Of a stretch of DNA of 39,576 bases, positions 8,279-33,228 are shown piece by piece. Source of the stretch: Syntrophomonadaceae bacterium (GTDB lineage: Bacteria; Bacillota; PH28-bin88); NCBI GenBank assembly GCA_018333865.1, contig JAGXSE010000010.1, positions 1 to 39,576 of the forward strand. Direction: 5' to 3'. The first letter of the stretch is position 1; the number at the start of each line of letters is the position of its first letter. Below the pieces are notes generated by a model, which was given only the letters and a program-made list of their open reading frames with translations, was not told the DNA's origin and did no database searches. The position numbers were made by a program, and so were the translations under genes.

Positions 8279-8351
8279 TTAAGCTCTCGAAAACAGTCCT
8301 GAAAGGTCAACAGCAGGAGTTTTGCATTGCCTGCCGAATAATTTCCTTATT

Positions 8352-8466
8352 GGGGACATCCGCGTACCGTTCAAGAAGCAAGAAGCAAGAGGCTGGATGG
8401 ATAAGCGGCTTTTGGTCCCAAGTATCTGGCTCCTGTCTCCTGCTTCCTGCCTCCTGCATCCTGTAA
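8352..8466. repeat. Family B repeat, complete copy
   Basis: About 100 bp between spo0F and the next gene. The left arm (ccgttcaagaagcaagaagc), the conserved centre (ggatggataagcggctttt, then ggtcccaagtatctgg) and the right arm (cctgcttcctgcctcctgca) match the copies at 36482, 36590 and 38793. The arms form a long imperfect inverted repeat. It creates a false N-terminal extension of the downstream gene. Confidence 0.85.
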
Positions 8467-8480
8467 AAGAGGTGAGTCCG

Positions 8481-9170
8481 ATGTTAATTCCTGCTGCAAC
8501 CGTATTGGCTTTCAGGTGCCCGGCTTGTAACGGCATGGATTTTCATTGCCTTTCCCTGTTTTCTTTTTCCGGCAGTAAAAAACAATCCCTGATCTGCTCC
8601 TGCGGGGCCGAGATCCTCCAGATTTCCACCAAGGATTATGCCTCGTTCCACCTGCAGGTGCAATGTATGATGTGTGAAACCAGGCATTTATGGTACTATC
8701 AGCGTAAAGAGCTCTGGTCGAACAACTTGACCTGTTTTTCCTGCCCGGAAACCCAGTTGGAAATCGGATGCGCCGGCCCCAAGGAAAAGGTGAAACAGTT
8801 TGTCCTTTATCAGGAAAGATCCCTGGGTGAGGTAGCGGAGGAGCTGCGCCGGAAGGGCTACTTTAAAAACCCTGATCTTATATATAAAGCATTAGAAAAT
8901 CTTAATATCCTGGCGGAAACAGGGCGCTTGCAGTGCCAGTGCGGCAACCAGAGCCTGGAAATGGGTATTTTCCCGGATAATATCCATTTGCGGTGCAGCC
9001 ACTGCGGTACTCACAGTTATTTAAGGGCTGAACATGAACAGGACCTTAACTGGTTATCTGCCTGCAGTGACCTCTGCTTAACCCATCAGGGCCTGGTGAT
9101 CAAGGATAAGATTAAATGCCGCCTGCAAGAGCGTCTAAATACAAGAAAGAAGAGGAAGAATAAACTCTAA
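8481..9170 (+). CDS. Cysteine-rich zinc-ribbon protein of unknown function
   Basis: A 229-aa soluble protein with 17 cysteines, most in CxxC or CxC pairs: Cys13/16, 39/41, 62/65, 85/88, 152/154 and 172/175. This suggests three or more zinc ribbons: an N-terminal pair (residues 11-90) and a C-terminal one (150-180), separated by a helical stretch (FVLYQERSLGEVAEELRRKGYF, 107-128). The tail is very basic (RLNTRKKRKNKL), which might bind nucleic acid. The start is ATG 8481 with AGAGGTGAG upstream; the open frame further upstream is family B repeat. I do not recognise a named family. Its position between spo0F and fba suggests a lineage-specific gene, but gives no function. Confidence 0.8.
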   Translation: MLIPAATVLAFRCPACNGMDFHCLSLFSFSGSKKQSLICSCGAEILQISTKDYASFHLQVQCMMCETRHLWYYQRKELWSNNLTCFSCPETQLEIGCAGPKEKVKQFVLYQERSLGEVAEELRRKGYFKNPDLIYKALENLNILAETGRLQCQCGNQSLEMGIFPDNIHLRCSHCGTHSYLRAEHEQDLNWLSACSDLCLTHQGLVIKDKIKCRLQERLNTRKKRKNKL

Positions 9171-14051: not shown

Positions 14052-14177
14052 TGAAGGCGAACTTCATGCCCGGCTGCATTGATCGGGGGACATTCCCGGG
14101 CGTCTATTAGCTGGCTTGGTTTCAGCCTTTGTCTGAAGCTAAGAACCAGTTCAAGTTATAGAAACGGAGGACTTAGG

Positions 14178-15470
14178 GTGAAAAAAAAGGTATTGGTGAG
14201 CTGGTGTTTAATCGGGCTGGGCCTGCTTCTGGTGACAGGTTGCGGCCCAGGGAAGGAGATCCGTGCCGAGGCGGAAATTTCCAAGCCGGTGACGGTAAAA
14301 GCCGTGACCAGGGGAGAGGTAAAACTGGTCCATACGGTCAGCGGGCGCGTAGGCCCGGCATCGGAAGTGCAAGTGGTGCCGAAGATAGGGGGCAAAGTGG
14401 CCGCAGCGGCTGTAAACGTAGGGGATGCAGTCAGCCCGGGCCAAGTCTTGATCAGGCTCGACACTGCGGATCTTGCGGTTCAGGTCAGGCAGGCAGAAGC
14501 GGCAGTGGCGGTTGCAGCGGCGAATTTAAATAACCTTTTGGCGGGAACCAGGCCGGAACAGCTGGCACAGGCTCAAGCCGGCCTGCAGGCAGCCAAGGCA
14601 GGTCTGGAAAATGCCAGGGCTAACCATGACAACATCCTGGCTAACCTGGAACGCATGCGCTACTTGTACGATCAGGGAGCGATCGCCAGGCAGCAGTTAG
14701 AGGCAAGCGAGACCCAGGGGCGGGTAGCCGCCGGGGGCCTGATTCAGGCTGAAGCCCAGTTAATACAGGCTAAAGAGGCTTTGCGCATGGCTGAGGCCGG
14801 TCCAACCACAGAAATTCTCGACGTTGCCAGGGCCCAGCTGAAGCAAGCGGAAGCAGGCCTTCTATTAGCCAGGAATCATCTGGCAAACAGCGTCATCACG
14901 GCTCCGGTTGCCGGCCGGGTCAATGCCAGGCACGTGGAGGAGGGGGAAATGGCGGGTCCGGCTATGCCCGTAGTTACTTTGCTGCGCCAGGGACCGGAGG
15001 TTGTGGAATTCGAGGTCACCGAAGCCCATGTTAATTATTTATCACCCGGGCAGGAACTGCCGGTGAGAATCAGGGCCGCGACAGAAAATACCTTGCAAGG
15101 GCGGGTAAAGACTGTCAGTCTGGCCGCAGACCCCCGTACCAGATCCTATCAGGCCAGGGTGGAAATAATTTCAGGCCAGGCTGCCGTAAGACCGGGAATG
15201 ACTGCGGCAATAGATATCCCCATCGAGAGAAAAACAGGCGTACTTGCCGTTCCTCTTTCAGCAGTGCTGGAGCGAGGCGGGCGAAATATCGCCTTTGTAG
15301 TCAAGGATAACAGGGCTGAAATCCGTGAACTGTCCTTAGGCGTGGCGGATCATCAAACAGTAGAAGTGGTTACAGGCTTAAACGAGGGTGAGCTATTGGT
15401 GGTAGCCGGCCAGCAGCTCTTGTCAGGCAATGACCTGGTGGCGATTCAAGAGGGAGGCCGGCAGCCATGA
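14178..15470 (+). CDS. RND efflux adaptor, HlyD/AcrA-type lipoprotein
   Basis: Periplasmic-adaptor-like protein (430 aa) that links an RND pump to an outer component. The start is GTG 14178, with CGGAGG 7 nt upstream. It gives a lipoprotein signal peptide (VKKKVLVSWCLIGLGLLLVTGC, lipobox VTGC), so the mature protein should be anchored to the membrane by its cysteine. Then come a barrel-sandwich half (VVPKIGGKVAAAAVNVGDAVSPGQVLIRLD), a long Ala/Gln-rich coiled coil (about residues 95-235), the second lipoyl half (ITAPVAGRVNARHVEEGE) and a beta-barrel with the typical VKTVSLAADPRTRSYQARVEI segment. The stop overlaps the pump start (ATGA), so the two are translationally coupled. Confidence 0.93.
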   Translation: MKKKVLVSWCLIGLGLLLVTGCGPGKEIRAEAEISKPVTVKAVTRGEVKLVHTVSGRVGPASEVQVVPKIGGKVAAAAVNVGDAVSPGQVLIRLDTADLAVQVRQAEAAVAVAAANLNNLLAGTRPEQLAQAQAGLQAAKAGLENARANHDNILANLERMRYLYDQGAIARQQLEASETQGRVAAGGLIQAEAQLIQAKEALRMAEAGPTTEILDVARAQLKQAEAGLLLARNHLANSVITAPVAGRVNARHVEEGEMAGPAMPVVTLLRQGPEVVEFEVTEAHVNYLSPGQELPVRIRAATENTLQGRVKTVSLAADPRTRSYQARVEIISGQAAVRPGMTAAIDIPIERKTGVLAVPLSAVLERGGRNIAFVVKDNRAEIRELSLGVADHQTVEVVTGLNEGELLVVAGQQLLSGNDLVAIQEGGRQP

Positions 15471-18400
15471 ATTTTGCTAATTTCTCGGTTAACCGCCCGA
15501 TTGCCGTCATCATGCTCATCCTGATCGTGTTGTTGCTGGGGATGGTCTCTTTGCAGAGCCTGACCATCGATCTCTTTCCTGAACTAAACCTGCCCTGGGC
15601 GGTAGTGATCACCGACTATGCCGGGGCCGGCCCGCAAGAAATAGAAACCATGGTTACCCGGCCCCTGGAGTCGGTTTTGGGGACTGTGAGCAACATCAGC
15701 GAGATCAATTCTTTTTCCATGGTGGGCACTTCAGTGGTGGCTTTAGAATTTAACTGGGGCACAGACATGAATTTTGCCACCTTGGAGATGCGGGAAAAGA
15801 TTGATCTGGTGGAAAGGGCTTTGCCGGAGGACACCAGGGCGCCGATCGTATTTAAAATGGACCCCCAGTTAATGCCGGTGATCCAGCTCGCCGTTACCGG
15901 CGACATGCAGATGGCGGAATTGAGAAGCATTGTGGAGGAAGTGATCAAGCCCCGCCTGGAACGGGCGGCAGGAGTGGCCTCGGTCACACTTAGGGGGGGC
16001 TTCCGTCCGGAGCTGCAGGTAAACCTGGCGCCGGAAAAACTGGCAGCCTACCGCCTGTCCATCAGCCAGGTAGTCCAGGCCCTGCAGATGGGCAACCTGG
16101 ACGCTTCGGGCGGGCAGGTAGCAAAGGGTGACCAGGAGCTGTTGGTCCGGGTGATGGGCCGCCTGCAGAACCCGGCAGAGGCTAAAGAGATAGTGGTCTT
16201 TACTCCTGACGGCGCGGCTGTCAAGTTAAAAGATCTGGCAGAAGTAGTGAAAGGCTACCGGGATCAGGACACCTTTACCTACCTGGACAAAAGCCCCAGC
16301 ATCGGTCTTGATATCAATAAAAAAAGTGATGCCAATACGGTGCAGGCGGTGCAGGAGGTAAGGCAGGTGGTCAGGGACCTGGAGCGGGTCTTGCCTGCGA
16401 ACATTAAAATCACCAGCATTTATGACCAGGCCTTCTTTATCGAGCGGACAATCGCCAATATCACCTCCTTCATCCTCACGGGCGGAATCTTGGCGATGCT
16501 GGTGCTTTTCTTCTTCCTCCGCAGTTTCCGGACGACCATGGTGATAGCTTTATCTATGCCCATTTCAATTATCGCCACCTTTATTCTAATCTATTTCAGC
16601 GGGCTCAGCCTCAACATGATGACCCTGGGGGGGCTGGCTCTGGGGGTGGGGATGATGGTGGACAGCTCCATCGTTGTGTTAGAAAACATCTATCGCCGCC
16701 GCCAGCTGGGGTTGGATGCCAAAAATGCAGCGATAACAGGGACGGCAGATGTAGTCAATCCGCTTATTGCCGCTACCCTGACTACCGTGGCGGTATTTTT
16801 GCCGATTGTCTTTGTGCAGGGCATGGCTTCCCAGCTTTTCAAGTCGATGGCCTTAACAGTTTCCTTTTCCCTCTTAGCTTCAATTTTAGTTTCCCTGACC
16901 CTGGTCCCCATGTTTGCCTCCCGGATGCTAAACGGGAGAGTAGGGCAAACACAGCCTGGCAACGGCATCAGACAAAAGATTTTACAGATTAGCAGCAAAT
17001 GGCAGGAAAATTTAAACAGCCTTTACGGGCGGGTATTGGTTTGGGCTTTGGCCAAAAGGCGGCTGGTTGTCGGCGGGGTAACGGCGGCCTTTATCGCCAG
17101 CCTGGGACTGGTTCCCTTTGTGGGGACCGAGTTTCTGCCCCGGATGGATATCGGCATGATATCTGTTGAAATCAAGCTTCCCCGCGGCACCGCCATCGAA
17201 CATACCGGCAAGATTGCCGGCAAAGTAGAAGAGTTTTTAATAGCGCAGCCGGAAATCGCCAGTGTTTACACTGTCCTGGGCAGCGCCGGCGGCGGGATGG
17301 GCGAATTAGGCGGCGGCAGCAGCGAAAACGCGAACATCCTGGCTACCCTGGCGCCCCTTGCCGAGCGAGACCGGCCAACCCGGGCGGTGGCAGCCGCTGT
17401 AAACGCGGAAACAATGAAAATTCCCGGCGCTGCGATTACCGTTACCGAAATGGATGCCTATGGGGGCATGGGGGCGGCCATGTACCCGATCGAGCTGGTG
17501 ATCAAGGGGGATGACCTGGACATCCTGGCCCAGTTGGCGGGGCTGGTGAAAGATATTGTTGCCAGGGTCCCCGGAACCAAAGATGTGAAAACAAGCCTGG
17601 AGGAAGGGCGCCCGGAGCTGCAAGTGCTGATCGACCGGGAGCTGGCAGCGGCCTACGGGATTTCCGCGGCCCAGGTGACCGGTACGGTGCGGGCTGCCGT
17701 CCAGGGCCAGGTGGCTACCCAGCTGCGCCAGGGTGGCAAAGAAATTGACGTGCGGGTGCGCCTACCGGAGGGGGCCCGTTCTAATCCCAGCCACCTGGAG
17801 CAGTTAATGGTGGCATCCCCGCTGGGTTTTCAAGTGCCGCTAAAAGAGCTGGCCAGACTGGAAGTGCATGAGGGACCGCAGCAAATTGAACGCCGGGACC
17901 AGACCGCTACCGTGACCGTGACCTCTAACCTGGCGGGACGATCTCTAGGCGAGGTAATGCTAGAAATTGAAGAGAGCCTGGCCGGCTTCAGCCTGCCACC
18001 AGGGTATCTGCTGGATATGGGCGGGCAGGCCCAGGAGATGCAGGAATCCTTCGGCGATCTGACCTTAGCCTTATTGATGGCCATCGCCCTGGTTTATATG
18101 ATCATGGCGGCCCAGTTCGAATCCCTTTTCCATCCACTGGTGATCATGTTCACCATGCCAACGGCTGTTATTGGCGTGATCCTGGCCTTGGCGGTAACCG
18201 GCCGGACCTTTGGCATTACAGCCTTTATCGGGGTAATCCTCCTGGCCGGTATAGTGGTAAACAATGCCATTATTTTGATTGACTACATCAATACCCTGCG
18301 CAGGCAGGGCATGAGCCGGGAAGAAGCTATTAAAACCGCCGGCCCCATCCGCCTGCGCCCCATCTTGATGACTGCCCTGACTACCATCCTGGGGTTATTC

Positions 18401-18613
18401 CCCCTGGCCCTGGGCTTTGGCGAGGGAGCGGAAGCCCAGGCTCCCCTGGCCACGGTGGTGATCGGCGGCATGGTCTTCTCTACCTTCCTGACCCTGGTCT
18501 TGATCCCGGTGGTCTATACCCTCCTGGAAGATTTAGGGCAGCGGCTCGGCGTTTTTATCAGAAGAAAAACCGGCGCCGACGGCCATTTCTCGGTATCCGG
18601 TCGTAGGTCGTAA
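15467..18613 (+). CDS. RND (AcrB/HAE1-like) efflux pump
   Basis: A 1048-aa proton-driven inner-membrane exporter of the AcrB/CzcA superfamily. It begins with FSVNRPIAVIMLILI (TM1) and has the porter motif DLFPELNLPW. The first large extracytoplasmic loop spans about residues 35-330, TM2-TM6 about 333-500, the second loop about 560-860, and TM8-TM12 follow. The TM4 proton-relay region reads GGLALGVGMMVDSSIVVLENI; Asp399 is the AcrB Asp407 equivalent and the next position is Ser. TM10 has GIVVNNAIILIDYI. The pattern fits a drug/lipophile exporter rather than a heavy-metal pump, but the substrate is unknown. RND pumps with all three parts are uncommon in single-membrane Firmicutes. Confidence 0.95.
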   Translation: MNFANFSVNRPIAVIMLILIVLLLGMVSLQSLTIDLFPELNLPWAVVITDYAGAGPQEIETMVTRPLESVLGTVSNISEINSFSMVGTSVVALEFNWGTDMNFATLEMREKIDLVERALPEDTRAPIVFKMDPQLMPVIQLAVTGDMQMAELRSIVEEVIKPRLERAAGVASVTLRGGFRPELQVNLAPEKLAAYRLSISQVVQALQMGNLDASGGQVAKGDQELLVRVMGRLQNPAEAKEIVVFTPDGAAVKLKDLAEVVKGYRDQDTFTYLDKSPSIGLDINKKSDANTVQAVQEVRQVVRDLERVLPANIKITSIYDQAFFIERTIANITSFILTGGILAMLVLFFFLRSFRTTMVIALSMPISIIATFILIYFSGLSLNMMTLGGLALGVGMMVDSSIVVLENIYRRRQLGLDAKNAAITGTADVVNPLIAATLTTVAVFLPIVFVQGMASQLFKSMALTVSFSLLASILVSLTLVPMFASRMLNGRVGQTQPGNGIRQKILQISSKWQENLNSLYGRVLVWALAKRRLVVGGVTAAFIASLGLVPFVGTEFLPRMDIGMISVEIKLPRGTAIEHTGKIAGKVEEFLIAQPEIASVYTVLGSAGGGMGELGGGSSENANILATLAPLAERDRPTRAVAAAVNAETMKIPGAAITVTEMDAYGGMGAAMYPIELVIKGDDLDILAQLAGLVKDIVARVPGTKDVKTSLEEGRPELQVLIDRELAAAYGISAAQVTGTVRAAVQGQVATQLRQGGKEIDVRVRLPEGARSNPSHLEQLMVASPLGFQVPLKELARLEVHEGPQQIERRDQTATVTVTSNLAGRSLGEVMLEIEESLAGFSLPPGYLLDMGGQAQEMQESFGDLTLALLMAIALVYMIMAAQFESLFHPLVIMFTMPTAVIGVILALAVTGRTFGITAFIGVILLAGIVVNNAIILIDYINTLRRQGMSREEAIKTAGPIRLRPILMTALTTILGLFPLALGFGEGAEAQAPLATVVIGGMVFSTFLTLVLIPVVYTLLEDLGQRLGVFIRRKTGADGHFSVSGRRS

Positions 18614-18667: not shown

Positions 18668-19801
18668 ATGGGAAAAGCTATCATGATCTTTTTATTACTG
18701 GCAGTGCTGGCTGTTGGCTCTGCCAGCCCGGCCCTCCTGGCCGGCAGCAAACCCCCGGCACTTACCCTGTCTTTGGCGGCCGCCAAAGACCTGGCTCTAA
18801 GCCAAAACCCTCAGGCGGAATTGAGCCGGCTGGGGGTTAATAAGGCACAGGTAAAGCTGGAAGAGGCCAACTCCAGGGCAGACCAGCTGGAAAAACAGGA
18901 AGACCTGATCGGAGCCAATTACGACACGGCCAGGGGCCGTTATGTCGCTCCCCGGGCCGCTGAAATGGAGCTTAACCTGGCCCGGCAGAATGAGGTCTTT
19001 CAGGCCAATCTGCTAAAATTTACGGTCGAGAGCCACTATTACGGCCTTTTAAAAGCTAAGGCGGCACAGGAACTGGCTCAGGCTGCCCTGGAGCGGGCCA
19101 AAGAACAGCTGCGACTGGCTGAAGCCGGATCAAGAGCCGGCACTGTTGCCAAAGGAGAAATCCTGGGGGCGAAGGTTTTGGTTGCAGCGGCCGAAACCGA
19201 AACTCTGGCCGCCAACAACGGTTACCGGATCGCCATGATGCGGCTGAACAAAACCCTGGGCTTTCCTTTGGAACAGGAGCTGGCCTTAAGCGATAAGTTT
19301 CAGTTTCAGGCGATCAAGGCCGAACTCACAGACGTTCTGCCAAAGGCCCGGGATTTCGACCCCCAGCTGATGCTGGCCAAAGAGATGGTTGCCGTGCAGG
19401 AAGTGAATTTACAGCAAGCCAGGCGCTTTTTTACACCCAATGTCTATGCTTATCGCCAGGCGGAGTACGACTTGGCGGAAGCCAGGGCCAAATTAACCCG
19501 GCAGGAGCAGGAGCTGGAGTTTGCGGTGCGTCAATCCCTCCTGAACCTGGAAGCTGCCGCCGGCGCCTACCGGGTCCTGGAGCAGAACCTGGAAGCTGCC
19601 CGGGAACACCTGCGGGTAGCCAACTTGAAACTTACAGCCGGGGTGGGCACCAGGATCGAGGCCCAAAGGGCGGCCGAGGAACTGCAAAGGGTAGAGAACA
19701 GGATGCTGGAAGCCTTGACCAATTACAACCTGGCGGCCACAGCTATTGAGCACTTAATCTTTGAAGCCGGTTCCCCGGCTGACGGCGGTGGATCTCGATG
19801 A
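18668..19801 (+). CDS. TolC-like outer-component protein, short and without visible beta-barrel
   Basis: A 377-aa exported protein with signal peptide MGKAIMIFLLLAVLAVGSAS and a helical TolC/OEP body: LSLAAAKDLALSQNPQAELSR at the N terminus, then long Ala/Glu/Gln coiled coils. Family TolC proteins are usually 420-480 aa and carry two pairs of barrel strands. Here the first strand position (residues about 70-100) stays helical and polar, and the second is cut to FFTPNVYAYRQAEYDLAEA. It may serve as a helical tunnel contact for the adaptor across the cell wall of a single-membrane cell. ACGGAGG precedes the ATG. A short GC hairpin repeat lies in the 54-bp gap after the pump. Confidence 0.85.
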   Translation: MGKAIMIFLLLAVLAVGSASPALLAGSKPPALTLSLAAAKDLALSQNPQAELSRLGVNKAQVKLEEANSRADQLEKQEDLIGANYDTARGRYVAPRAAEMELNLARQNEVFQANLLKFTVESHYYGLLKAKAAQELAQAALERAKEQLRLAEAGSRAGTVAKGEILGAKVLVAAAETETLAANNGYRIAMMRLNKTLGFPLEQELALSDKFQFQAIKAELTDVLPKARDFDPQLMLAKEMVAVQEVNLQQARRFFTPNVYAYRQAEYDLAEARAKLTRQEQELEFAVRQSLLNLEAAAGAYRVLEQNLEAAREHLRVANLKLTAGVGTRIEAQRAAEELQRVENRMLEALTNYNLAATAIEHLIFEAGSPADGGGSR

Positions 19802-20412
19802 GAGAAGGCCAGCCAGGCAGGGGAGAAGGCGAAAAACGGCAGCAGATCTTGGAAGCAGCTCTAACGGTGTTTGCCCGGGATGGTTTCCACAAGGCTAAAG
19901 TTGAGGATATCGCTCTGGTTGCCGGAGTGGGAAAAGGCACGGTTTATCATTACTTTTCCGGCAAACACGAGCTGTTTCAGGCCATGCTGGAAATGTCCCT
20001 GGGCAAGTACCGGACCCTGATGCGGGCAGAACCAGGAGGTGCCGGCAGTTTCCGCCAGCGGCTAGAATCCTTATTGGCAGCCCATTTGGAATTTGTCTGG
20101 CAGCATCGGAAGATGGCCCAGCTTTTGCTGACAGATAACAGGCCGTTGCCGGAAAAAATTTACCGCTTTATGTGGCAAGAGCGCCGCAGGATGAGGGTTA
20201 ATATGATCAGGATGTTAAAACAGGGGATGCTCACCGGAGAAATCCGTCCGTTTGATCCCAGGCTGGCCAGTCTGGTTGTCCTCGGACTGTTCGTGTCCTT
20301 AGGGAGCCAACTGGCATTCGGGTCTGAAACCAAAGACCGGGATCAGCTTGCCGCAGGCGCTGTGCAAGTGCTGATGGCCGGTCTGGCCAACAAATCAGTA
20401 AGTATAAACTGA
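19798..20412 (+). CDS. TetR-family repressor
   Basis: A 204-aa regulator with an N-terminal TetR helix-turn-helix (LTVFARDGFHKAKVEDIALVAGVGKGTVYHYFSGKHELF, residues about 22-60) and a helical ligand domain. The ATG overlaps the TolC-like stop (ATGA), so it is the last gene of the efflux operon and is probably autoregulated with it. The 22-bp palindrome at 14030 is the most likely binding site, by inference. A stem TTGAGCG/CGCTCAA follows at 20436-20459 but has no T-tract. Confidence 0.92.
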   Translation: MREGQPGRGEGEKRQQILEAALTVFARDGFHKAKVEDIALVAGVGKGTVYHYFSGKHELFQAMLEMSLGKYRTLMRAEPGGAGSFRQRLESLLAAHLEFVWQHRKMAQLLLTDNRPLPEKIYRFMWQERRRMRVNMIRMLKQGMLTGEIRPFDPRLASLVVLGLFVSLGSQLAFGSETKDRDQLAAGAVQVLMAGLANKSVSIN

Positions 20413-20495: not shown

Positions 20496-21398
20496 ATGGA
20501 TACAGACTATTGGATACGCAGGGTCAGGGCGGCATTGCTGGCAGCAGTCGCGGCAGGTTTGGTGCTGCTGGCAGTGGGAGTGCCTCCGGCCCATGGCAGG
20601 TGGGTGACAGATGTCTACGATTCGTGGCGGAAACCACCCACACCCATGCCGCTGAGGGCACCTGAGGCTCAAAACCAGGCAGCTTCTGTCTATTACCGGG
20701 TCCAACCAGGCGATACCCTTTGGAGCATCGCCAGGATCAAGGGCCTGACGGCAGAAGAACTGGCGGCCGCTAACCGCCTGACCCTGCAGAATAACATCTT
20801 TGCTGGTCAATACCTGCAAATTCCAGGTTCCTTGCAAACAAAACACCGGGTTCGCCAGGGAGATACCCTCTGGCACATTGCCAACACCTACGGGGTGGAA
20901 ATGGAACAGATTGTCCAGTCAAACAGCCTCAGGCGGCCGGACCGCCTGGCTCTGGGCCAGAAACTTACGATTCCTGTAGTTGGCAGTCAAAGGCGCGAAA
21001 CAGTCCTGGCGGTTTCCCGGAGTGTCGGCAGGATGATCTGGCCGGTGGCGGGGGTGATTACCTCCCGCTTTGGTCCCCGTTCCGGCGGTTTCCATCATGG
21101 ATTGGATATCGCGGCTGATATCGGGCAACCAGTAAGGGCTGCCTCAGCCGGTGAGGTCATTTTCTCCGGCTGGAAAAACAGCATCTACGGCCGGATCGTC
21201 ATGGTGGACCACGGCGGAGGTTATCGGACCCTTTATGCTCATAACTCAATCAATCTGGTGCAAGTAGGAGACTCTGTGCAGGCTGGGCAGGTCATTGCCC
21301 AGGTGGGTGCCACCGGCAGAGCAACCGGGCCCCACGTGCACTTTGAGGTCTATCAGGCTGGAAAAATAAGGGACCCCTTGCGCTTTCTCCAGCGTTAG
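20496..21398 (+). CDS. LysM domain M23-family metallopeptidase
   Basis: A secreted or membrane-anchored cell-wall hydrolase (300 aa). It has an N-terminal hydrophobic segment (residues 11-34, ending AHG, possible cleavage), two LysM peptidoglycan-binding domains (about 66-111 YYRVQPGDTLWSIAR... and 117-161 HRVRQGDTLWHIAN...), and a C-terminal LytM/M23 endopeptidase domain (about 180-298). Zinc ligands are visible: His200 and Asp204 in FHHGLDIA and His282 in HVHFEV, with His280 the catalytic partner, so the enzyme should be active. GAGGTGAGG precedes the ATG. Proteins of this type are common in sporulation and cell separation; no specific role can be read here. Confidence 0.93.
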   Translation: MDTDYWIRRVRAALLAAVAAGLVLLAVGVPPAHGRWVTDVYDSWRKPPTPMPLRAPEAQNQAASVYYRVQPGDTLWSIARIKGLTAEELAAANRLTLQNNIFAGQYLQIPGSLQTKHRVRQGDTLWHIANTYGVEMEQIVQSNSLRRPDRLALGQKLTIPVVGSQRRETVLAVSRSVGRMIWPVAGVITSRFGPRSGGFHHGLDIAADIGQPVRAASAGEVIFSGWKNSIYGRIVMVDHGGGYRTLYAHNSINLVQVGDSVQAGQVIAQVGATGRATGPHVHFEVYQAGKIRDPLRFLQR

Positions 21399-21556: not shown

Positions 21557-23152
21557 ATCTTCGGTAAAATTACCCGCAAACTGCGGGCCTGGCGCCAAAA
21601 ACAAAAACAGCCGGCTGGCGGGTTGCCTCTGGGGAACCGTTCCTCCTCAGGGCAACAGATATCACTAGACCTGACCGTCAACCTGCAACGGGTGAAGACC
21701 GTGTTCAGCCAGTCCTCCGATATCGTTTTCCGGGAGTTTAACATCGGCGTCGGCCAGCAGTCCCGGGCCTTTATCGTGTATATGGACGGCCTGGTGGATA
21801 AGACCCTCCTGTATAACTGCCTGCTCAAACCATTAATGTACGATGCCCGCCTGGCTACGACCAATCCGGGTGCCGCCGGGAAAAATACGCCGGAATTGAT
21901 CAGGGAAACGATCCTGGCTGTTGGCGTACTGGAGGAAACAGCCGATCTTGACCAGGCCGTCGCGGCGGTCCTGTCCGGCAGCACGGCCCTTTTTGTCGAC
22001 CGCCATGGGGCGGTCTTCCTGGTGGGAACCCGGGGCTGGGAAGCCCGGGGGATAGAGAAACCAGATGTTGAGACAGTAGTGCGGGGGCCCAGGGAGGCCT
22101 TTACCGAGACCCTGCGGATTAACACCTCCATGGTGCGCCGCAAGATCAAAAACCCCGATTTAAAGATCGAGGCCATGAAGATCGGGCGGCAGACCAGGAC
22201 CGATGTGGCCGTAGTTTACTTAAAAGGCATCGTCAATGACAGGATCGTGGCCGAGGTCAGGGAGCGGCTCAAACGGATCGACATCGACGGGGTATTGGAA
22301 AGCGGCTACCTGGAGGCTTATATCGAGGACGCTCCCCTTTCCCCTTTTGCCACAGTTGGCAACACCGAAAAGCCGGATGTGGTGGCGGCCAAGCTGTTAG
22401 AGGGCCGGGTGGCTATTTTGGTGGACGGCACCCCCTTTGCGTTAACCGTCCCTTACCTGTTTGTGGAGTCCCTGCAGGCGGCCGAAGATTACTACTCCCG
22501 GTCAATTTACGTCACCATGATCCGGTGGCTGAGGTGGGTGGCTTTTTTTTTAGCCGTCATCTCCCCGGCAATTTATGTCATCCTGGTTGCCTTTCACCAG
22601 GAGCTATTGCCGACCAGCCTCTACCTGACCATTGCCGCGGACCGGGAAGGGCTGCCTTTTCCGGCTGTTCTGGAAGCCCTGTCCATGGGGATCATGTTTG
22701 AAATCCTGCGGGAGGCGGGGGTGCGGCTGCCCCGGGCGGTGGGCCAGGCCATCAGCATTGTCGGGGCGATGATCATCGGGGAAATGGCCATCAGAGCCGG
22801 GCTGATCGGGAGTATGATGGTGATTATAGTGGCGGTAACCGCCATCAGCGGCTTTGTGGTGCCGGCTTTAAGCGATGCGATGGCCATCATGAGGCTGGTC
22901 TTGCTCCTTCTGGGGGGAACCATGGGCCAGTTCGGACTGATCGTGGGTCTGCTGGGCTTTCTCTTGCACCTGGCTTCCCTCCGGTCTTTTGGCGTGCCCT
23001 ATCTTTCTCCCCTGGCGCCATTAACCTTCCAGGACCTGAAGGACGTGGCCATCCGGGCTCCCTGGTGGGCCATGCGCCAGCGGCCCCGGCTGATTGGCCG
23101 GCAAAACCCGGTGCGGCAACAGCCGGGACAAAAGCCCGGACCCCCTGATTGA
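21557..23152 (+). CDS. gerA: Spore germination protein GerA family, possible AUC start
   Basis: A-subunit of a nutrient germinant receptor in the spore inner membrane. The body has family features: ISLDLTVNLQRVKTVFSQSSDIVFREF, FIVYMDGLVDKTLL, VVYLKGIVND, DGTPFALTVPYLFVESLQAAEDYY, then 4-5 membrane helices (about 22530-22960) and a basic tail. The first usual start codon in frame is TTG 21623 (509 aa), which has no ribosome binding site. A strong GGGAGGG (21544-21550) instead points to ATC at 21557, giving a basic N terminus (IFGKITRKLRAWRQKQK) typical of GerA proteins and 531 aa. An in-frame TAG at 21536 and no ATG/GTG/TTG in between limit the choices. The start is therefore uncertain; the family is not. 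Confidence 0.9.
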   Translation: MFGKITRKLRAWRQKQKQPAGGLPLGNRSSSGQQISLDLTVNLQRVKTVFSQSSDIVFREFNIGVGQQSRAFIVYMDGLVDKTLLYNCLLKPLMYDARLATTNPGAAGKNTPELIRETILAVGVLEETADLDQAVAAVLSGSTALFVDRHGAVFLVGTRGWEARGIEKPDVETVVRGPREAFTETLRINTSMVRRKIKNPDLKIEAMKIGRQTRTDVAVVYLKGIVNDRIVAEVRERLKRIDIDGVLESGYLEAYIEDAPLSPFATVGNTEKPDVVAAKLLEGRVAILVDGTPFALTVPYLFVESLQAAEDYYSRSIYVTMIRWLRWVAFFLAVISPAIYVILVAFHQELLPTSLYLTIAADREGLPFPAVLEALSMGIMFEILREAGVRLPRAVGQAISIVGAMIIGEMAIRAGLIGSMMVIIVAVTAISGFVVPALSDAMAIMRLVLLLLGGTMGQFGLIVGLLGFLLHLASLRSFGVPYLSPLAPLTFQDLKDVAIRAPWWAMRQRPRLIGRQNPVRQQPGQKPGPPD

Positions 23153-23225
23153 AGCGGAAAGATAAGCAGTACTCAATACTTGTTATTTTCAGAGCAGATA
23201 GCCAGATCCGAAGGAGGGAATGCAG

Positions 23226-24335
23226 GTGTTGGAAAAAGGCAAGATCACGGCCAGGCAGCTCATTTTTATCATGCTCATCAGCAGGTTAGTTATTCCAACC
23301 ACCGACTTGCCTGTCTTAACATCGCCTCCGGCCAATCAGGACGTCTGGCTGGCCGCCCTGTTGTCACCATTTACGACCATGGTGCTGGCGGCTCCGTTAG
23401 TTCTTCTGGCCATCCGGTTTCCCGGGCTTACCATCATCCAGTGGGGGCCTCTTTTGCTGGGGAAGGCCGGTGTGGCGATCGGCTGTCTTTATGTCTGGTT
23501 TTTCCTGCATAATGCCGCCATTACCTTGAGGACGGCGGCAGAGTTTATGACTGCGGTGCCAATGCCGGAAACCCCCCTGGTGGTGTTTATCCTGCTCCTG
23601 GCCTTAATCTCTGCTGCGGCTGCGGCTAACGGGTTAGAGGTAATCGGCCGCATGGCGGAACTCCTCTGCCTTTTGTTGCTGGCAGCCGTCCTGGCGCAAT
23701 TTGTGCTGGTTTTGCCGGAGATGGAGGTCAAGGCCCTGCAGCCGGTCCTGGAGGAAGGCATAGGGCCGGTGCTCCTTGGCGCCTTTTACGTCTCGGCCCG
23801 GCTGGTCGAAGTCCTGATTCTGGCCATGGCGGTGCCTTATTTAAACAAAAAGAGCCCCAAGCAGATCATCGGCGTTTTGGCCGCCAACCTGGCGGTCTTC
23901 ACCGTCTTCTTTGTCCTCATCATCCTTGCGGTGACCATGGTTTTTGGCGCGGCAAAAGCCCAGGCCTATTCCTTCCCCTATCTGTCTTTAAGCCGGATCG
24001 TCAGCCTCGGCGACGTGATCGAGCGGGTAGAGATCATCCACCTGAGTGTTTTTATCATGGGCGTCTTCATTAAGGTGGCTGCTTTCTTTTACCTGGCAGT
24101 GCTGGGATTAAGCCAGTTAATGAACCTGCAAACCTACCGGCCCCTGGTTCTCCCGCTGGGAGCCCTATTGGTGGCCCTGTCGGTCTGGCTTTTTGACAGC
24201 CTGCCGGAACTGACCCGGTTTACCCAGTACCAGGTCTGGACGCCCTACGGGCTGTTGTTTATTACCGGGTTCCCATTGCTGCTTTTGGCAGTGGCCCTGG
24301 TGCGCAAAAAAAGGGAGGGATCCAGCAGTGCATAA
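23226..24335 (+). CDS. gerB: Spore germination permease GerB (GerAB family)
   Basis: B-subunit of the germinant receptor, an amino-acid-permease-like membrane protein of about 370 aa with ten predicted helices. It starts with GKITARQLIFIMLISRLVIPTT, has the TM2-3 region LLSPFTTMVLAAPLVLL, and ends with a basic RKKREG tail. AAGGAGG (23211-23217) lies 8 nt before GTG 23226 but only 2 nt before ATG 23220, so GTG 23226 is preferred; the two differ by two codons. The 3' end overlaps gerC by 8 nt, as in other gerABC operons. Confidence 0.92.
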   Translation: MLEKGKITARQLIFIMLISRLVIPTTDLPVLTSPPANQDVWLAALLSPFTTMVLAAPLVLLAIRFPGLTIIQWGPLLLGKAGVAIGCLYVWFFLHNAAITLRTAAEFMTAVPMPETPLVVFILLLALISAAAAANGLEVIGRMAELLCLLLLAAVLAQFVLVLPEMEVKALQPVLEEGIGPVLLGAFYVSARLVEVLILAMAVPYLNKKSPKQIIGVLAANLAVFTVFFVLIILAVTMVFGAAKAQAYSFPYLSLSRIVSLGDVIERVEIIHLSVFIMGVFIKVAAFFYLAVLGLSQLMNLQTYRPLVLPLGALLVALSVWLFDSLPELTRFTQYQVWTPYGLLFITGFPLLLLAVALVRKKREGSSSA

Positions 24336-25566
24336 GCGGCAGGTGTTTTATGGGCTTTTCCAGTGGCTAAAGCGGCAGCGTCCAACGACTGAACGGGACG
24401 CAGTGCCTAAAGAGCGGGTGTGTTATGGACTGTTCCTGCTGTTTTTGCTCCTGACCGTAGCCATTACAGCCGGTTGCTGGAACTGGCGGGAAATAGGCAC
24501 CCTGGCCACTGTCTCCGCCGCCGCGATCGATCTGGAGGAAGACGGGACGGTAGTCTTGACTGTGCAGGTGATCAAGCCGGGAGAGGTTAAAGCCAAGGCG
24601 GCGGAAGGAGGCGGGGGGTCCGGCGCCAAGGCTGTCACCCTGTTCACTGCCAGCGGCCGCACAGTGTTTGAGGCTGTCCGGGCTATGGCCCGCCAGTCGG
24701 AGCGAAAGCTGTACTGGCCACATTGCAAGCTGGTGGTCTTCGGCGAGGAAGCGGCCCGGGCCGGACTCGCCCCCTTAATGGATTTTTTCTACCGGGATCC
24801 TGAGCCGCGGGAGAACCTCTGGGTACTGGTGGCCAAGGGTAAAGCCGGGGACATCCTGGCGGTTGAGGGGCAGCTGGAGAAAATACCGGGCATCTCCCTG
24901 ACTAATCTGATTAGGGCCAGGACAGCCACTTCCCAGGTGGTGGGGGTCCGTTTGTTTGAATGGCTAAAAAAGTTTATCGCGGAAGGACAGGACCCTTTTG
25001 CGACCGGGATTATGCATGTGCCCGGGCCTGACGGGGAAAAGCGCCTGTTCCTGGCCGATACGGCAGTATTTCAAAAAGACAGGCTGGCCGGTTGGTTAGG
25101 CCCTACCGAGACCAGAGGCCTGTTGTGGGTCCTGGGCGAAGTCAAAAGCGGCATCATCGTAGTTTCTATCCCCGGGGAAGAAACCGCTCAGGCCAGTTTG
25201 GAGATTCTCCGGGCTCGCAGCAAACTGGAGCCCGAAATTAAAGACGGGGTCCTGACTATGACCGTGGAAGTGGAGGCGGAAGGCAACTTGGGCGAACAGA
25301 TGGATTTTGCTGACCTTACAAAAAAAGATGCCTGGGCCGCCCTGGAAAAACGCATGGCAGAGGTGATTGAAAAAGAAATCAGGGCAGCCCTGCGGCAGGC
25401 CCAGGAGGAATGGGGAGCGGATATCTTCGGGTTCGGCGCGGCAGTGCGGCGGAAATACCCCCAGGAATGGCGGGAAATGAAAGATAAGTGGGAAGAAATC
25501 TATCCCACCGTAGCAGTGGAAATAAAAGCAAAGGCCAAACTCCACCGCTACGGCCTCATCCAATAA
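24328..25566 (+). CDS. gerC: Spore germination lipoprotein GerC (Ger(x)C family)
   Basis: C-subunit of the receptor, a lipoprotein on the outer face of the spore inner membrane (412 aa from GTG 24328). A hydrophobic signal (CYGLFLLFLLLTVAITAGC, lipobox TAGC) begins about residue 32, after an unusual 31-residue hydrophilic lead. Ger(x)C signs include NWREIGTLATVSAAAIDLE, FEAVRAMARQSERKLYWPHCKLVVFGEEAAR, and a C-terminal domain with WGADIFGFGAAVRRKYP. An internal GTG at 24418 would put the signal at the very N terminus and may be the true start; the segments around the two candidates (RQVFYGLF, ERVCYGLF) resemble each other, as if duplicated. Confidence 0.9.
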   Translation: MHKRQVFYGLFQWLKRQRPTTERDAVPKERVCYGLFLLFLLLTVAITAGCWNWREIGTLATVSAAAIDLEEDGTVVLTVQVIKPGEVKAKAAEGGGGSGAKAVTLFTASGRTVFEAVRAMARQSERKLYWPHCKLVVFGEEAARAGLAPLMDFFYRDPEPRENLWVLVAKGKAGDILAVEGQLEKIPGISLTNLIRARTATSQVVGVRLFEWLKKFIAEGQDPFATGIMHVPGPDGEKRLFLADTAVFQKDRLAGWLGPTETRGLLWVLGEVKSGIIVVSIPGEETAQASLEILRARSKLEPEIKDGVLTMTVEVEAEGNLGEQMDFADLTKKDAWAALEKRMAEVIEKEIRAALRQAQEEWGADIFGFGAAVRRKYPQEWREMKDKWEEIYPTVAVEIKAKAKLHRYGLIQ

Positions 25567-27586: not shown

Positions 27587-28072
27587 GTGAGTTTCCTCTT
27601 GACTTTTGCAATTATGTTTATTTTTTGGCTCTTATTATCCGGCAAATTCACGCCCTTATTCCTGTTTATGGGCGTGATCTCCAGCCTGCTGACGGCTTAC
27701 GCCTACCATCGTTTTTTCCTGGGGAATGCCTGTCAAATTGGCATCAAGATGACCTGGCGGAGTTTTAGGCGCTTCCTGTTATATTTGCCTTGGCTCCTAT
27801 ACCAAATCCTTATGGCCAACATCCATATCGCCTATCTAATTCTGCATCCCCGCATGCCCATTGACCCTGTTTTAATCAAATTCAAATCAAAGCTGGATCA
27901 GGACCTGGCCTGTGTGGTATTTGCCAACTCCATCACCCTGACCCCCGGCACCATCACGGTGGAGTGCCAGGACGGGGAGTATTTGATCCATGCCCTGGAC
28001 AGGTTTTCGGCCGAGGGACTTTTAGCAGGGGAAATGGAAAACAAAGTGGCACAGATTTTCCGCGTTGAATAG
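27587..28072 (+). CDS. mnhE: Multisubunit cation/H+ antiporter subunit MnhE (MrpE/MbhA)
   Basis: First gene of the antiporter operon; a 161-aa membrane subunit of Mrp/Mbh complexes. Three helices lie in the first 70 residues (FLLTFAIMFIFWLLLSG, FTPLFLFMGVISSLLTAYA, FLLYLPWLLYQILMANIHIAYLIL). They precede the conserved soluble tail with ANSITLTPGTITVECQDGEYLIHAL, the MnhE hallmark. GTG start at 27587 follows AGGAAAG. Downstream genes follow closely or overlap. Confidence 0.95.
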   Translation: MSFLLTFAIMFIFWLLLSGKFTPLFLFMGVISSLLTAYAYHRFFLGNACQIGIKMTWRSFRRFLLYLPWLLYQILMANIHIAYLILHPRMPIDPVLIKFKSKLDQDLACVVFANSITLTPGTITVECQDGEYLIHALDRFSAEGLLAGEMENKVAQIFRVE

Positions 28073-28087
28073 GGGGACTAAAGGACA

Positions 28088-28357
28088 ATGGGGGACTTCT
28101 TTCTGGCAATTGCCGTTATTATTGGTATTCTGGTAATACTTTCGCTTTACCGGGTTGTTTATGGGCCAGGTGTCTGGAACCGGCTGGCCGGTGTCAATAT
28201 CATCGGCACCAAGACGATAGTTATTTTGGCCCTGGTCGGCTTTATTTTTGACCGCGTCGACATGTTTGTAGACATTGCTCTGATTTATGCCATGCTGAAT
28301 TTTGTGGTGGTCTTGATTATTGCCAGGTACTATACAAAGGAGGAAGGAGAAGGTTAA
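28088..28357 (+). CDS. mnhF: Antiporter subunit MnhF (MrpF/MbhB)
   Basis: 89 aa with three helices. The hallmark RVVYGPGVWNRLAGVNIIGTKT links TM1 and TM2, as in MrpF (R...GP...DR..A...). The final KEEGEG tail is cytoplasmic. It lies 15 bp after mnhE and abuts mnhG with no gap. Confidence 0.95.
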   Translation: MGDFFLAIAVIIGILVILSLYRVVYGPGVWNRLAGVNIIGTKTIVILALVGFIFDRVDMFVDIALIYAMLNFVVVLIIARYYTKEEGEG

Positions 28358-28666
28358 GTGGCCTTTTTTTTGGCGATTATCCTGATTTCTCTGGGAACGG
28401 CCTTATTTTTTGTGGGGACGGTCGGCCTTTTGCGCTTGCCTGACTTTTACACCAGGCTGCATGCCATTGGCAAGTGTGATACCCTGGGCTTAATCCTGCT
28501 CATGCTCGGCCTGATGGTTTACGAAGGCTTTTCCCTCAATGCGGTGAAGCTCTTGATGATTGTTGTCTTGATCATGATCGCCAATCCCACGGCAACCCAC
28601 GCCTTGGCCAGGGCCGCTATAAAGGCCAAGCTGCAGCCGTGGCAAAAAGAGGGTAGTGTCCAATGA
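28358..28666 (+). CDS. mnhG: Antiporter subunit MnhG (MrpG/MbhC)
   Basis: 102 aa, three helices, with the MrpG signature GTVGLLRLPDFYTRLHAIGKCDTLG after TM1 and ANPTATHALARAA near the end. GTG start directly follows the mnhF stop, with AAGGAGGAAGG upstream inside mnhF. It overlaps the next gene by 4 nt. Confidence 0.95.
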   Translation: MAFFLAIILISLGTALFFVGTVGLLRLPDFYTRLHAIGKCDTLGLILLMLGLMVYEGFSLNAVKLLMIVVLIMIANPTATHALARAAIKAKLQPWQKEGSVQ

Positions 28667-28908
28667 TTGTACAGTTGGATTTAATCTTTTTGACCCTGCT
28701 GGTAATCACTGCTTTAGGGGCGATTTTGGTTAAGGACCTATTAAGCGCAATCATTATTTTTGCGGCTTACAGTTTCTTTATGGCAATTGCTTTTGCCGTG
28801 CTAAACGCTGTTGACGTGGCTCTTACCGAAGCGGCGGTGGGAGCCGGGATTACCACCTTGCTTTTTATTGTGGCTATGCACCAAATTGCGAGGAGGGCTA
28901 AGAATTGA
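28663..28908 (+). CDS. DUF4040 subunit (MbhD-like, part of MrpA C-terminal region)
   Basis: 81 aa with three helices. KDLLSAIIIFAAYSFFMAIAF and DVALTEAAVGAGITTLLFI match DUF4040, which in Bacillus MrpA is fused at the C terminus and in archaeal Mbh is the separate MbhD subunit. The conserved Glu of LTEAAVGAG is kept. It starts inside the mnhG end (ATGA overlap). Confidence 0.9.
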   Translation: MIVQLDLIFLTLLVITALGAILVKDLLSAIIIFAAYSFFMAIAFAVLNAVDVALTEAAVGAGITTLLFIVAMHQIARRAKN

Positions 28909-29180
28909 AGGTTTTGCCTTTGCTGGCCTGTCTCCTGACAGGGGCGCTCCTGGTCTACGGCACCTTGGACATGCCTGCGGTGGGGGACCCAAAAGCGCCG
29001 GCCCACCTGCATGTTGCTCCTTTCTATATTGAAAGTTCTTACCAGGATACAAGGACACCTAATATCGTCACTGCAGTCCTGGCAGATTACCGCAGTTTCG
29101 ATACCCTGGGGGAAGTTTCTGTGATTTTTGTGGCGGGAATGGCGGTAATCATGTTATTAACACCCAGGAGGCAGCCATGA
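28905..29180 (+). CDS. MbhE-like subunit
   Basis: 91 aa. Two helices (VLPLLACLLTGALLVYGTL and VSVIFVAGMAVIMLL) flank an external loop of about 45 residues that contains PNIVTAVLADYRSFDTLGE, the conserved motif of MbhE and of the MrpA/MrpB junction. TTG start overlaps the previous stop (TTGA), with GAGGAGG 8 nt upstream. Confidence 0.88.
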   Translation: MKVLPLLACLLTGALLVYGTLDMPAVGDPKAPAHLHVAPFYIESSYQDTRTPNIVTAVLADYRSFDTLGEVSVIFVAGMAVIMLLTPRRQP

Positions 29181-29617
29181 TCGAAAAACGCGACACTGTG
29201 ATCGTCTGCCTGGCCTGCAGGTTTTTGGCTCCCTTTATCATGCTGTGCGGGCTGTATATTGTTGCTCACGGCCATTACTTTCCTGGAGGGGGGTTTCAGG
29301 GAGGAGTTATTATTGCTGTCAGTTTTATCCTGCTGATCCTGGGCGAGGGAAGTGCAAGAGTTAAAAATTTGCTGCCGGAGCATCGGCAAGTGGTTCTGAT
29401 CAGCTTAGGGGCCTTGATTTTTGTGGGTATCGGGTTTCTGCCGATGATCTTTGGCGGAAAATTTCTGGACTATGGCCAGATTCCCTTGCTATCCCTTGCA
29501 GCCCCTTATGTGCGGTATTTCATGATCCTGTTTGTCGAGATCGCCATTGCCATCACTGTGATGGGAGTCTTGTATGCTATCTTTGTCCATACTATAGCAG
29601 AAAGGGAATATGACTGA
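29177..29617 (+). CDS. mnhB: Antiporter subunit MnhB (MrpB/MbhF)
   Basis: 146 aa, four helices. The MnhB signature LYIVAHGHYFPGGGFQGGVIIA is clear at residues 26-47. The end reads VMGVLYAIFVHTIAERE. AGGAGG lies before the ATG, which overlaps the previous stop. Confidence 0.95.
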   Translation: MIEKRDTVIVCLACRFLAPFIMLCGLYIVAHGHYFPGGGFQGGVIIAVSFILLILGEGSARVKNLLPEHRQVVLISLGALIFVGIGFLPMIFGGKFLDYGQIPLLSLAAPYVRYFMILFVEIAIAITVMGVLYAIFVHTIAEREYD

Positions 29618-29979
29618 TGGAGTTTGTCCTGGACAGATACAACTACTGGATCTGCATTGTGTTGATGATGATCGGTTTTTACGGGATGATTGCCGACCCT
29701 AACCTGATTAAAAAAGTAATCGGGCTGAATATTTTCCAGACGGCGGTCTTGTTGTTTTTTATCACCATCTCGGCTAGAAAGGACGGCACCTTGCCAATTC
29801 TCCTGACCGGCGGCGGCGAAGCTTTTTATGCAAATCCCCTGCCCCATGTGCTAATCCTGACGGCAATTGTGGTTGGGGTGAGCGTTACAGCGGTGGCCCT
29901 CGCGCTCGTTATCAGGATCCATCGGGCCTACGGCACCATCGATGAAAACAAAATTGCCGCTTTGGAGCAAGAATCATGA
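29617..29979 (+). CDS. mnhC: Antiporter subunit MnhC (MrpC/MbhG, NuoK-like)
   Basis: 120 aa, three helices, homologous to complex I subunit NuoK. Family signs are GMIADPNLIKKVIGLNIFQTAVLLFF and DPLPxALxLTAIVVG-type residues (NPLPHVLILTAIVVGVSVTAVALAL). The start overlaps the mnhB stop by one base (TGATG). Confidence 0.95.
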   Translation: MEFVLDRYNYWICIVLMMIGFYGMIADPNLIKKVIGLNIFQTAVLLFFITISARKDGTLPILLTGGGEAFYANPLPHVLILTAIVVGVSVTAVALALVIRIHRAYGTIDENKIAALEQES

Positions 29980-31469
29980 TCGCATTAGTAGTAATTATTC
30001 CGCTTTTTGCCGCCTTCTTGATTACCCTGTCAGGAGTAACCAAATACAGGATTCACTGGCATATTGCCGGTGTTGCCACCTTCTTTTCCTTTGCGGCTTC
30101 ATTATATTTGCTGCAAGAGGTCTTTTCGGCCGGCCGCATAAGCTACTGGTTCGGCGGCTGGGAGCCTCCCTGGGGTATTGAGTTTGTTCTGGACTATTTT
30201 TCCAGTTTTATATTGGTAATTATCGCCTTTGTGGCTTTTGTCATCACAATGTACGCTGGCCCTAGCGTTAAAAAAGAGGTGGGAGAGGAGCGCTCCCTGA
30301 CCTTTGCAGCCCTGTACATGACCCTGGTGGCCGGCCTCTTCGGCATCGTCGTTACCGGTGACATGTTCAACCTCTATGTTTTCCTGGAAATTGCTTCTTT
30401 GGCCGGCTATGCCCTGATTGGTGCAGGCACAAAACGGGGCGCCTTGGTCGCCTCCTTTAACTACCTGATTTTAGGGACTATCGGCGCCGTCTTCTTCTTG
30501 CTGGGTGTAGGTTATCTGTATATGGTGACGGGAACCCTTAATATGGCAGACCTGGCTGTCAGGTTGCCTGCCCTGTACGATTCCAGGGTTATTTTGACTG
30601 CCTTTGCCCTGTTTACGGTCGGATTAAGTCTTAAATTCGCCTTGTTCCCTCTCCATACCTGGTTGTTAAGCGCCCACTCCCAGGCTCCCACCATTATTTC
30701 CGCCATCCTGGCGGCGGCCGTCTTAAAGGTAAATGTCTATGCACTGCTGCGGGTGATGTTTACCGTTTTTGGCTGGGAGTTCAGCCTGCAAGCAGTTCCG
30801 GTCAGCACACTCATGTATCTCCTGGCAGCGGCGGCCATTATCGGCGGCTCGCTTTTAACCGTTGCCCAGACCAATATCAAGCGGATGTTGGCCTTTTCCA
30901 GTGTAGGCCAGATTGGTTACATCGTCCTGGGGATAGCCCTGGCCAACCACACCGGGATGACCGGCAGCCTGATGCATATCTTAAACCATGCCCTGATGAA
31001 GGGCGGCCTCTTCTTGGCGGCCGGTGCTGTTATCTACAAGACGGGTCTCTACGAGCTTTCCGCCCTGAAAGGTATGGGCCGGAAAATGCCATACAGCATG
31101 GCGGCCTTCTCTGTCGCCGGCCTGTCCATGGTGGGAGTGCCCCTGACGGCAGGCTTTGTCAGTAAATGGTACCTGGCGGTGGGGGCTCTGGAGGCTGGCA
31201 TGGGGGTCTTTGTGCCGGTAATCCTGCTCAGTTCCCTTTTATCGGCAACCTATTTCTGGCGGGTAATCGAGAGCATCTACTTTGGCGTGAAAACGGCGGA
31301 CACCGGCCCGGAAACAAAAGAGCAACAGGGAAATACAGGCGAGGTCCCTGTCAGCATGCTGCTCCCGGTATTGGCCCTGGCCGGCCTTTGCATCTTGTTT
31401 GGCACCGCCGCCTTTATCCCGTTGTCTTTTGCGGAAAGGGCGGCAAGCCTCTTGCTGGGGGGAATGTAA
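29976..31469 (+). CDS. mnhD: Antiporter-like subunit MnhD (MrpD/MbhH, NuoN-like)
   Basis: 497 aa with about 14 helices, a member of the proton-translocating NuoL/M/N family. Key charged residues are kept: Glu138 in VFLEIASLAGYALIG (TM5), Lys220 in SLKFALFPLHTWLLSAHSQAP (TM7) and Lys251 in AAAVLKVNVYALLR (TM8). LLAFSSVGQIGYIVLG follows. It overlaps mnhC by 4 nt. Confidence 0.95.
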   Translation: MIALVVIIPLFAAFLITLSGVTKYRIHWHIAGVATFFSFAASLYLLQEVFSAGRISYWFGGWEPPWGIEFVLDYFSSFILVIIAFVAFVITMYAGPSVKKEVGEERSLTFAALYMTLVAGLFGIVVTGDMFNLYVFLEIASLAGYALIGAGTKRGALVASFNYLILGTIGAVFFLLGVGYLYMVTGTLNMADLAVRLPALYDSRVILTAFALFTVGLSLKFALFPLHTWLLSAHSQAPTIISAILAAAVLKVNVYALLRVMFTVFGWEFSLQAVPVSTLMYLLAAAAIIGGSLLTVAQTNIKRMLAFSSVGQIGYIVLGIALANHTGMTGSLMHILNHALMKGGLFLAAGAVIYKTGLYELSALKGMGRKMPYSMAAFSVAGLSMVGVPLTAGFVSKWYLAVGALEAGMGVFVPVILLSSLLSATYFWRVIESIYFGVKTADTGPETKEQQGNTGEVPVSMLLPVLALAGLCILFGTAAFIPLSFAERAASLLLGGM

Positions 31470-31470
31470 T

Positions 31471-32979: not shown

Positions 32980-33228
32980 ATGCAAAAAGCAGGGGAATTT
33001 TCTGCCAGCCCCAATTATTTCAAGTATCTCAAGTATTTATTCTATCTTGGCCTGATTGTGACCTTAGGCGCCGACTTTTTTGTGGAGCGTAAGAAGGTCT
33101 ATTTCCCCTGGGAGTTGATTCCCGGCCTGTATGCAGCTTTTGGATTTTTTGGCTGCTATTTGATCATAAAATTTGCCAAAACCCTGGGCTACCACTGGCT
33201 AATGAAAGAGGAAGACTATTATGACTAA
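32980..33228 (+). CDS. Small two-helix membrane protein in the antiporter operon
   Basis: 82 aa. Two hydrophobic helices (KYLFYLGLIVTLGADFFV and LIPGLYAAFGFFGCYLIIKFA) end in the acidic tail LMKEEDYYD. The ATG directly follows the previous stop, with GGAGGGAG upstream, and its end overlaps the last antiporter gene by 8 nt, so it is co-translated. Not one of the seven classical Mrp subunits; possibly a stabilising or linker subunit. Confidence 0.85.
   Translation: MQKAGEFSASPNYFKYLKYLFYLGLIVTLGADFFVERKKVYFPWELIPGLYAAFGFFGCYLIIKFAKTLGYHWLMKEEDYYD

Follow-up and report, generated by a model that had tools for sequence, protein, structure and literature searches.

A TolC-like duct without barrel segments in the RND pump operon of a Syntrophomonadaceae bacterium lacking detectable Omp85 and LpxC genes

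TolC-like proteins have been described in operons of monoderm Firmicutes that have no BamA and carry S-layer genes (Stubenrauch et al. 2022, PMC8809574). That study presented 12 proteins and a single homology model, in which an 'intriguing omission' in the barrel left a hydrophilic barrel. A PF02321 protein was also found in the surfaceome of the single-membraned Desulfotomaculum reducens (PMC4137172), and PMC8809574 cites work that found TolC-like proteins in secretomes of C. difficile. The protein analyzed here is encoded in a stretch of 39,576 nucleotides of Syntrophomonadaceae DNA (hereafter the window). It resembles those of PMC8809574, by description rather than by sequence, in belonging to the TolC family, in having a single-membraned host without BamA and in being encoded in an operon with an adaptor and a pump. 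The presence of TolC-like proteins in monoderm Firmicutes, including one with a modelled barrel omission, is therefore already known. What is new is that the barrel is missing entirely, that this is uniform as measured over 71 proteins, and that barrel-less and barrel-bearing genes are paired in diderm relatives.

Among characterized systems, E. coli TolC and OprM share with the window protein the Pfam OEP family, the two repeats, the coiled-coil alpha-barrel, the docking tips and the use with RND pumps and membrane-fusion proteins; they differ from it in their beta-barrel strands and in the outer membrane that its host lacks. Two further systems are comparable in architecture. MmpS5L5 of Mycobacterium tuberculosis (PMC12501195) combines an RND-superfamily pump with a coiled-coil tube of alpha-helices that extends past the membrane, but it belongs to another RND family and its tube is not described as TolC-derived in the abstract of that source. 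The MlaD transenvelope bridge of Veillonella (PMC10665443) is a helical tube bridging a diderm-Firmicute envelope, with some barrel-less members, but it belongs to the unrelated MCE family and transports lipids.

The operon and the gene following it comprised, in the order adaptor, pump, duct and regulator:

14079–15470, + strand: lipoprotein membrane-fusion (adaptor) protein, HlyD_D23/RND_mfp by Pfam, with a lipobox-like LVTGC recognized from sequence
15467–18613, + strand: RND pump of 1048 aa, with a full-length ACR_tran match (1–1020 of 1021)
18668–19801, + strand: barrel-less TolC-like duct of 377 aa, with a signal peptide and without a lipobox, based on Pfam, segment lengths, AlphaFold2 and Foldseek
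19798–20412, + strand: TetR-family regulator (Pfam), whose gene shares 4 bases with that of the duct, a position kept in relatives
20496–21398, + strand: LysM-M23 wall peptidase (Pfam), just past the operon

The true start of the adaptor is probably near codon 34 (14178), ahead of the lipobox. With a full-length ACR_tran pump, an adaptor and a duct in one operon, the locus has the composition of an RND tripartite pump. In both the window and genome G001, the operon was followed by the LysM-M23 peptidase gene; no homologue was found in the other named loci. The peptidase may owe its place to chance or may make an opening in the wall for the duct, and any tie to the pump is no more than possible. 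Elsewhere in the window were a spore germination operon of the gerA-gerB-gerC type (21623–25566), an Mrp-type Na+/H+ antiporter cluster with MNHE and three Proton_antipo_M proteins (27587–35017), a protein of 484 aa that has a SEC-C motif and weakly matches an Xre/MbcA/ParS C-terminal domain (281–1735), and a 282-aa ORF without a Pfam match (8322–9170).

PF02321 (OEP) was the sole Pfam family on the duct, scoring 71.5 bits against a cut-off of 22, which places the protein in the TolC family. It matched in two stretches, the better of which spanned profile positions 81–186 of 187; in the genome search the two stretches covered positions 79–186 and 85–187. Since the matches start at about 79–85, the strand-carrying part of the profile is absent from both halves of the duct. 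An AlphaFold2 model of the single chain, built on a 36-sequence alignment, was entirely helical (pLDDT 90.3, pTM 0.83), with two long helical pairs per repeat. The only strands were two 3-residue pieces at 32–34 and 205–207, so the predicted protomer lacked the four strands typical of the TolC family. At the two positions where TolC inserts its barrel hairpins, the model had turns instead:

18911–18919, + strand: turn at codons 82–84, first barrel hairpin position, from AlphaFold2 secondary structure and segment lengths
19430–19444, + strand: turn at codons 255–259 (FTPNV), second barrel hairpin position, from AlphaFold2 and the alignment of closest relatives

A barrel-bearing outer-membrane factor (OMF) from an Omp85-positive relative, modelled as a control, gave four strands of 10–17 residues (69–81, 89–105, 277–287 and 297–306), placed exactly where the window duct has its turns. 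The complete absence of both barrel segments from the window duct was thus confirmed. An earlier note, made from the sequence alone, had described a TolC-like protein of 377 aa that kept its coiled coils and signal peptide without the barrel regions, encoded beside a full RND pump and a lipoprotein adaptor. The profile gaps, the model and the segment lengths given below bore out the former, and the ACR_tran match, the HlyD-type adaptor and its LVTGC motif the latter; structure prediction of the single chain, proposed there as a check, returned helices only.

The remainder of the fold was that of TolC: the alignment, the model and Foldseek agreed that the two repeated coiled-coil halves and the equatorial elements follow each other as in TolC. 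In a Foldseek search against the PDB, the only significant matches were TolC, OprM, VceC, CmeC, CusC and their kin, with TM-scores (query length) up to 0.73 (e.g., 7ng8, rmsd 3.5 Å). A PDB search by sequence returned a sole match, to COMMD4 (E 0.022), which was judged a chance hit. The helix formed by residues 85–157 has 73 residues, corresponding to about 110 Å. Conservation was found at both ends of the fold. The TPNV of the distal turn was invariant in an alignment of the six closest relatives, suggesting that this end meets a partner or acts in closure. Glycines 158 and 325, which from knowledge of TolC we take to be the adaptor-docking tips, were present in 32/32 and 31/32 single-membrane relatives, respectively; in a separate alignment glycine 158 was invariant and glycine 325 nearly so. 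With the docking-end glycines conserved and the membrane end gone, selection on ducts of this type appears to act on the pump-facing end.

No Omp85 and no LpxC were found in the host genome, which is rated 100% complete, while the same searches were positive in control genomes. From the absence of these genes it follows, indirectly, that the duct does not have the outer-membrane location of the TolC family. The host genome had 17 SLH-domain matches, in line with the S-layer genes accompanying the proteins of PMC8809574, and GerA, Spore_permease and Spore_GerAC genes were present in the window, in agreement with a spore-forming host. The earlier supposition of a sporeformer without an outer membrane was therefore supported, and neither of the two findings that the note had named as contrary to its reading, a fold with four barrel strands or BamA/LPS genes in the genome, was obtained. 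The PF02321 search identified the window duct as the only TolC-like protein in this genome.

The occurrence of such proteins was examined in a phylum-level sample, as the samples at genus, family, order and class level held 3 genomes and were too small. Among its 399 genomes, PF02321 was found in 287 and Omp85 in 102, indicating that TolC-like proteins occur in well over half of the Omp85-negative genomes. Segment lengths were compared between 71 complete proteins from 69 Omp85-negative genomes (window duct included) and 30 barrel OMFs; the latter were the top-scoring ones and thus biased toward complete proteins, a bias that the diderm short ducts described below reveal. The helical segments were equal in both sets (73, 34–35 and 74 residues), whereas the median of the first barrel segment fell from 104 in barrel OMFs to 78 in the Omp85-negative set and that of the second from 94 to 56, with exactly 56 residues in many proteins. 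Equal helical lengths together with shorter barrel segments over 71 proteins indicate that the absence of the barrel is not due to chance, and nearly every TolC-like protein examined from the 69 genomes was barrel-less. The exception was a complete OMF with real barrel segments in a genome without detected Omp85 (L044, G083:C160); its contig measures 8.8 kb and comes from a bin of 450 contigs with 3% contamination, and it likely reflects contamination or an overlooked Omp85. A second candidate exception, L051, was rejected because its long second segment was proline/acid-rich and not strand-like. Five further proteins (L084, L087, L088, L094 and L101) had inserts of about 80–125 residues at the distal tip, in the place of the first barrel hairpin, which looked helical and, by eye, not barrel-like, and two single-membrane short ducts (L061 and L072) carried extra C-terminal repeats that by eye were of the wall-associated copper-amine-oxidase-N type.

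Scanning the named genomes with the window duct sequence alone gave no match, but a six-row alignment did find relatives. An orthologue in G001 was 57% identical and encoded in the same operon, and the order adaptor, RND pump, short duct and TetR was common to the window, G001 and the named relatives L171–L176. G001 also contained a second barrel-less TolC-like gene, followed by an HlyD adaptor, a double ABC ATPase and two ABC-2 permeases (L043:8213-14797), a gene order indicating that short ducts serve ABC exporters too.

The barrel-less alignment was also searched against 53 Omp85-positive genomes, and these likewise gave full-length barrel-less matches, of about 350–450 aa. This control search contradicted the idea that barrel loss is confined to monoderms. 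Across 40 loci, the segments of these diderm short ducts were about 62 and 55 residues, leaving no room for a barrel. In 36 of the 40, a longer OMF homologue (440–570 aa, with segments of barrel length) was present in the same cluster, mostly directly adjacent; of the other four, L164 and L197 had ambiguous long ORFs, none was found at L186, and L193 lay at a contig edge. Eleven loci had been selected on the strength of a hit list that showed both genes; among the remaining 29, chosen otherwise, 25 were clear short/barrel pairs. The pair clusters were of both RND and MacB/ABC type. Two RND clusters (L166 and L180) had the order adaptor, RND pump, short duct, barrel OMF and TetR, and two others (L163 and L165) the same order up to the contig ends. 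At the end of its contig, locus L164 (G034) had a 716-aa ORF (L164:7370-9517) with scores for RND pump and barrel OMF alike, either a fusion or a frame artefact. Genomes with standard barrel OMFs only (e.g., family f30) gave split, partial matches to the barrel-less alignment. Nothing on a barrel-less/barrel TolC pair was found in the open-access literature. As Omp85-positive relatives encode equally barrel-less ducts near barrel-bearing OMFs, barrel-lessness is not simply a wall adaptation, and the proposal of the earlier note that the barrel was lost to span the wall found no support in that form.

A reduced tree of 79 rows, unrooted and based on the helical columns alone, placed the barrel-less proteins on one side of a branch (support 93). 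A rival tree that kept the diderm proteins together, and the single-membrane ones together, was not rejected (p-AU 0.38), and the full tree was poorly resolved and needed about five barrel/no-barrel changes. One origin of the barrel-less class is compatible with these sequence data, though not established.

In our proposal, the window protein serves an RND efflux pump as its exit duct, in a cell that has no outer membrane. If it behaves like TolC, it would trimerise into an alpha-barrel of 12 helices, about 100 Å in length, docking tip-to-tip on the lipoprotein adaptor seated on the RND trimer, and substrates leaving the pump would travel across the wall zone and reach the S-layer or the exterior. 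With no membrane to cross, no beta-barrel would be needed. The window operon would correspond to a diderm two-duct operon minus the barrel gene, and the single-membraned pump looks, from gene order, like a two-duct pump without its outer-membrane piece. Taken as a whole (a barrel-less RND exit duct, a wall-zone path, and a class paired with barrel OMFs in diderms), we regard this account as reasonably probable; trimer, docking, wall path, efflux function and direction of evolution are parts that we infer by analogy. A Gram-positive wall of the thick kind would be too deep for a tube of about 100 Å, which counts against the proposed path. Thin walls and S-layers are frequent in deep-branching Bacillota that have no outer-membrane genes (PMC11448272), and such a tube would suit them. 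More tentatively, many diderm Bacillota pumps may use two TolC-type ducts encoded as a gene pair, and monoderms may have shed the barrel gene when the outer membrane was lost while retaining the barrel-less duct, their pumps being pre-adapted to that transition. In the diderm pair, a barrel-less ring could be stacked between adaptor and OMF, or the two proteins could form a mixed ring. The tip glycines were present in 25/32 and 29/32 paired barrel OMFs, compared with 32/32 and 31/32 in the single-membrane short ducts, a difference too small to decide on stacking.

The main alternative is that OMF barrels degenerated independently in each single-membraned lineage after outer-membrane loss, with the diderm short ducts arising separately. 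The unrejected grouping by envelope type would fit this, as would the first tip segment, which is about 15 residues longer in single-membrane proteins than in diderm short ducts (medians 77 vs. 62). However, segment lengths are uniform rather than ragged as expected in decay, the second being exactly 56 in most, diderm short ducts and the window duct occupy the same operon slot, and the supported branch of the reduced tree gathers the barrel-less rows on one side. We therefore consider independent degeneration unlikely. As the same short form is common in relatives without an outer membrane and stands beside a barrel-bearing gene in diderms, it seems unlike an isolated case of decay. Still less credit is due to a functionless or pseudogene-like remnant, which we find hardly credible: short length and the lost barrel are all that speaks for it, whereas the ORF is intact with its 4-base overlap with TetR, the G001 orthologue retains the operon, the TPNV tip and docking glycines are conserved, and the class is present in most Omp85-negative genomes sampled.

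A reduced, hydrophilic beta-barrel tip sitting in the S-layer, as proposed for C. difficile in PMC8809574, would accord with the SLH-domain matches of the host, with the truncated-barrel model and its hydrophilic surface, and with the S-layer genes in every case examined there. It is nevertheless quite improbable for the window duct, whose model has no barrel strands and a pLDDT >90 around both tips; moreover, the 2022 model was built by homology on barrel-protein templates, a method through which strands of the template can persist in the model. Contact between the S-layer and a helical tip is possible.

An open question is how Firmicutes kept their envelope-spanning machines when the outer membrane was lost. 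If the reading of the window duct as a barrel-less RND exit duct is correct, a class that is paired in diderms and alone in monoderms would offer a testable route, in which one gene is lost and the pump retained. A tripartite pump would then not be, by definition, an outer-membrane machine, and annotations as 'outer membrane efflux protein' would mislead in single-membraned bacteria.
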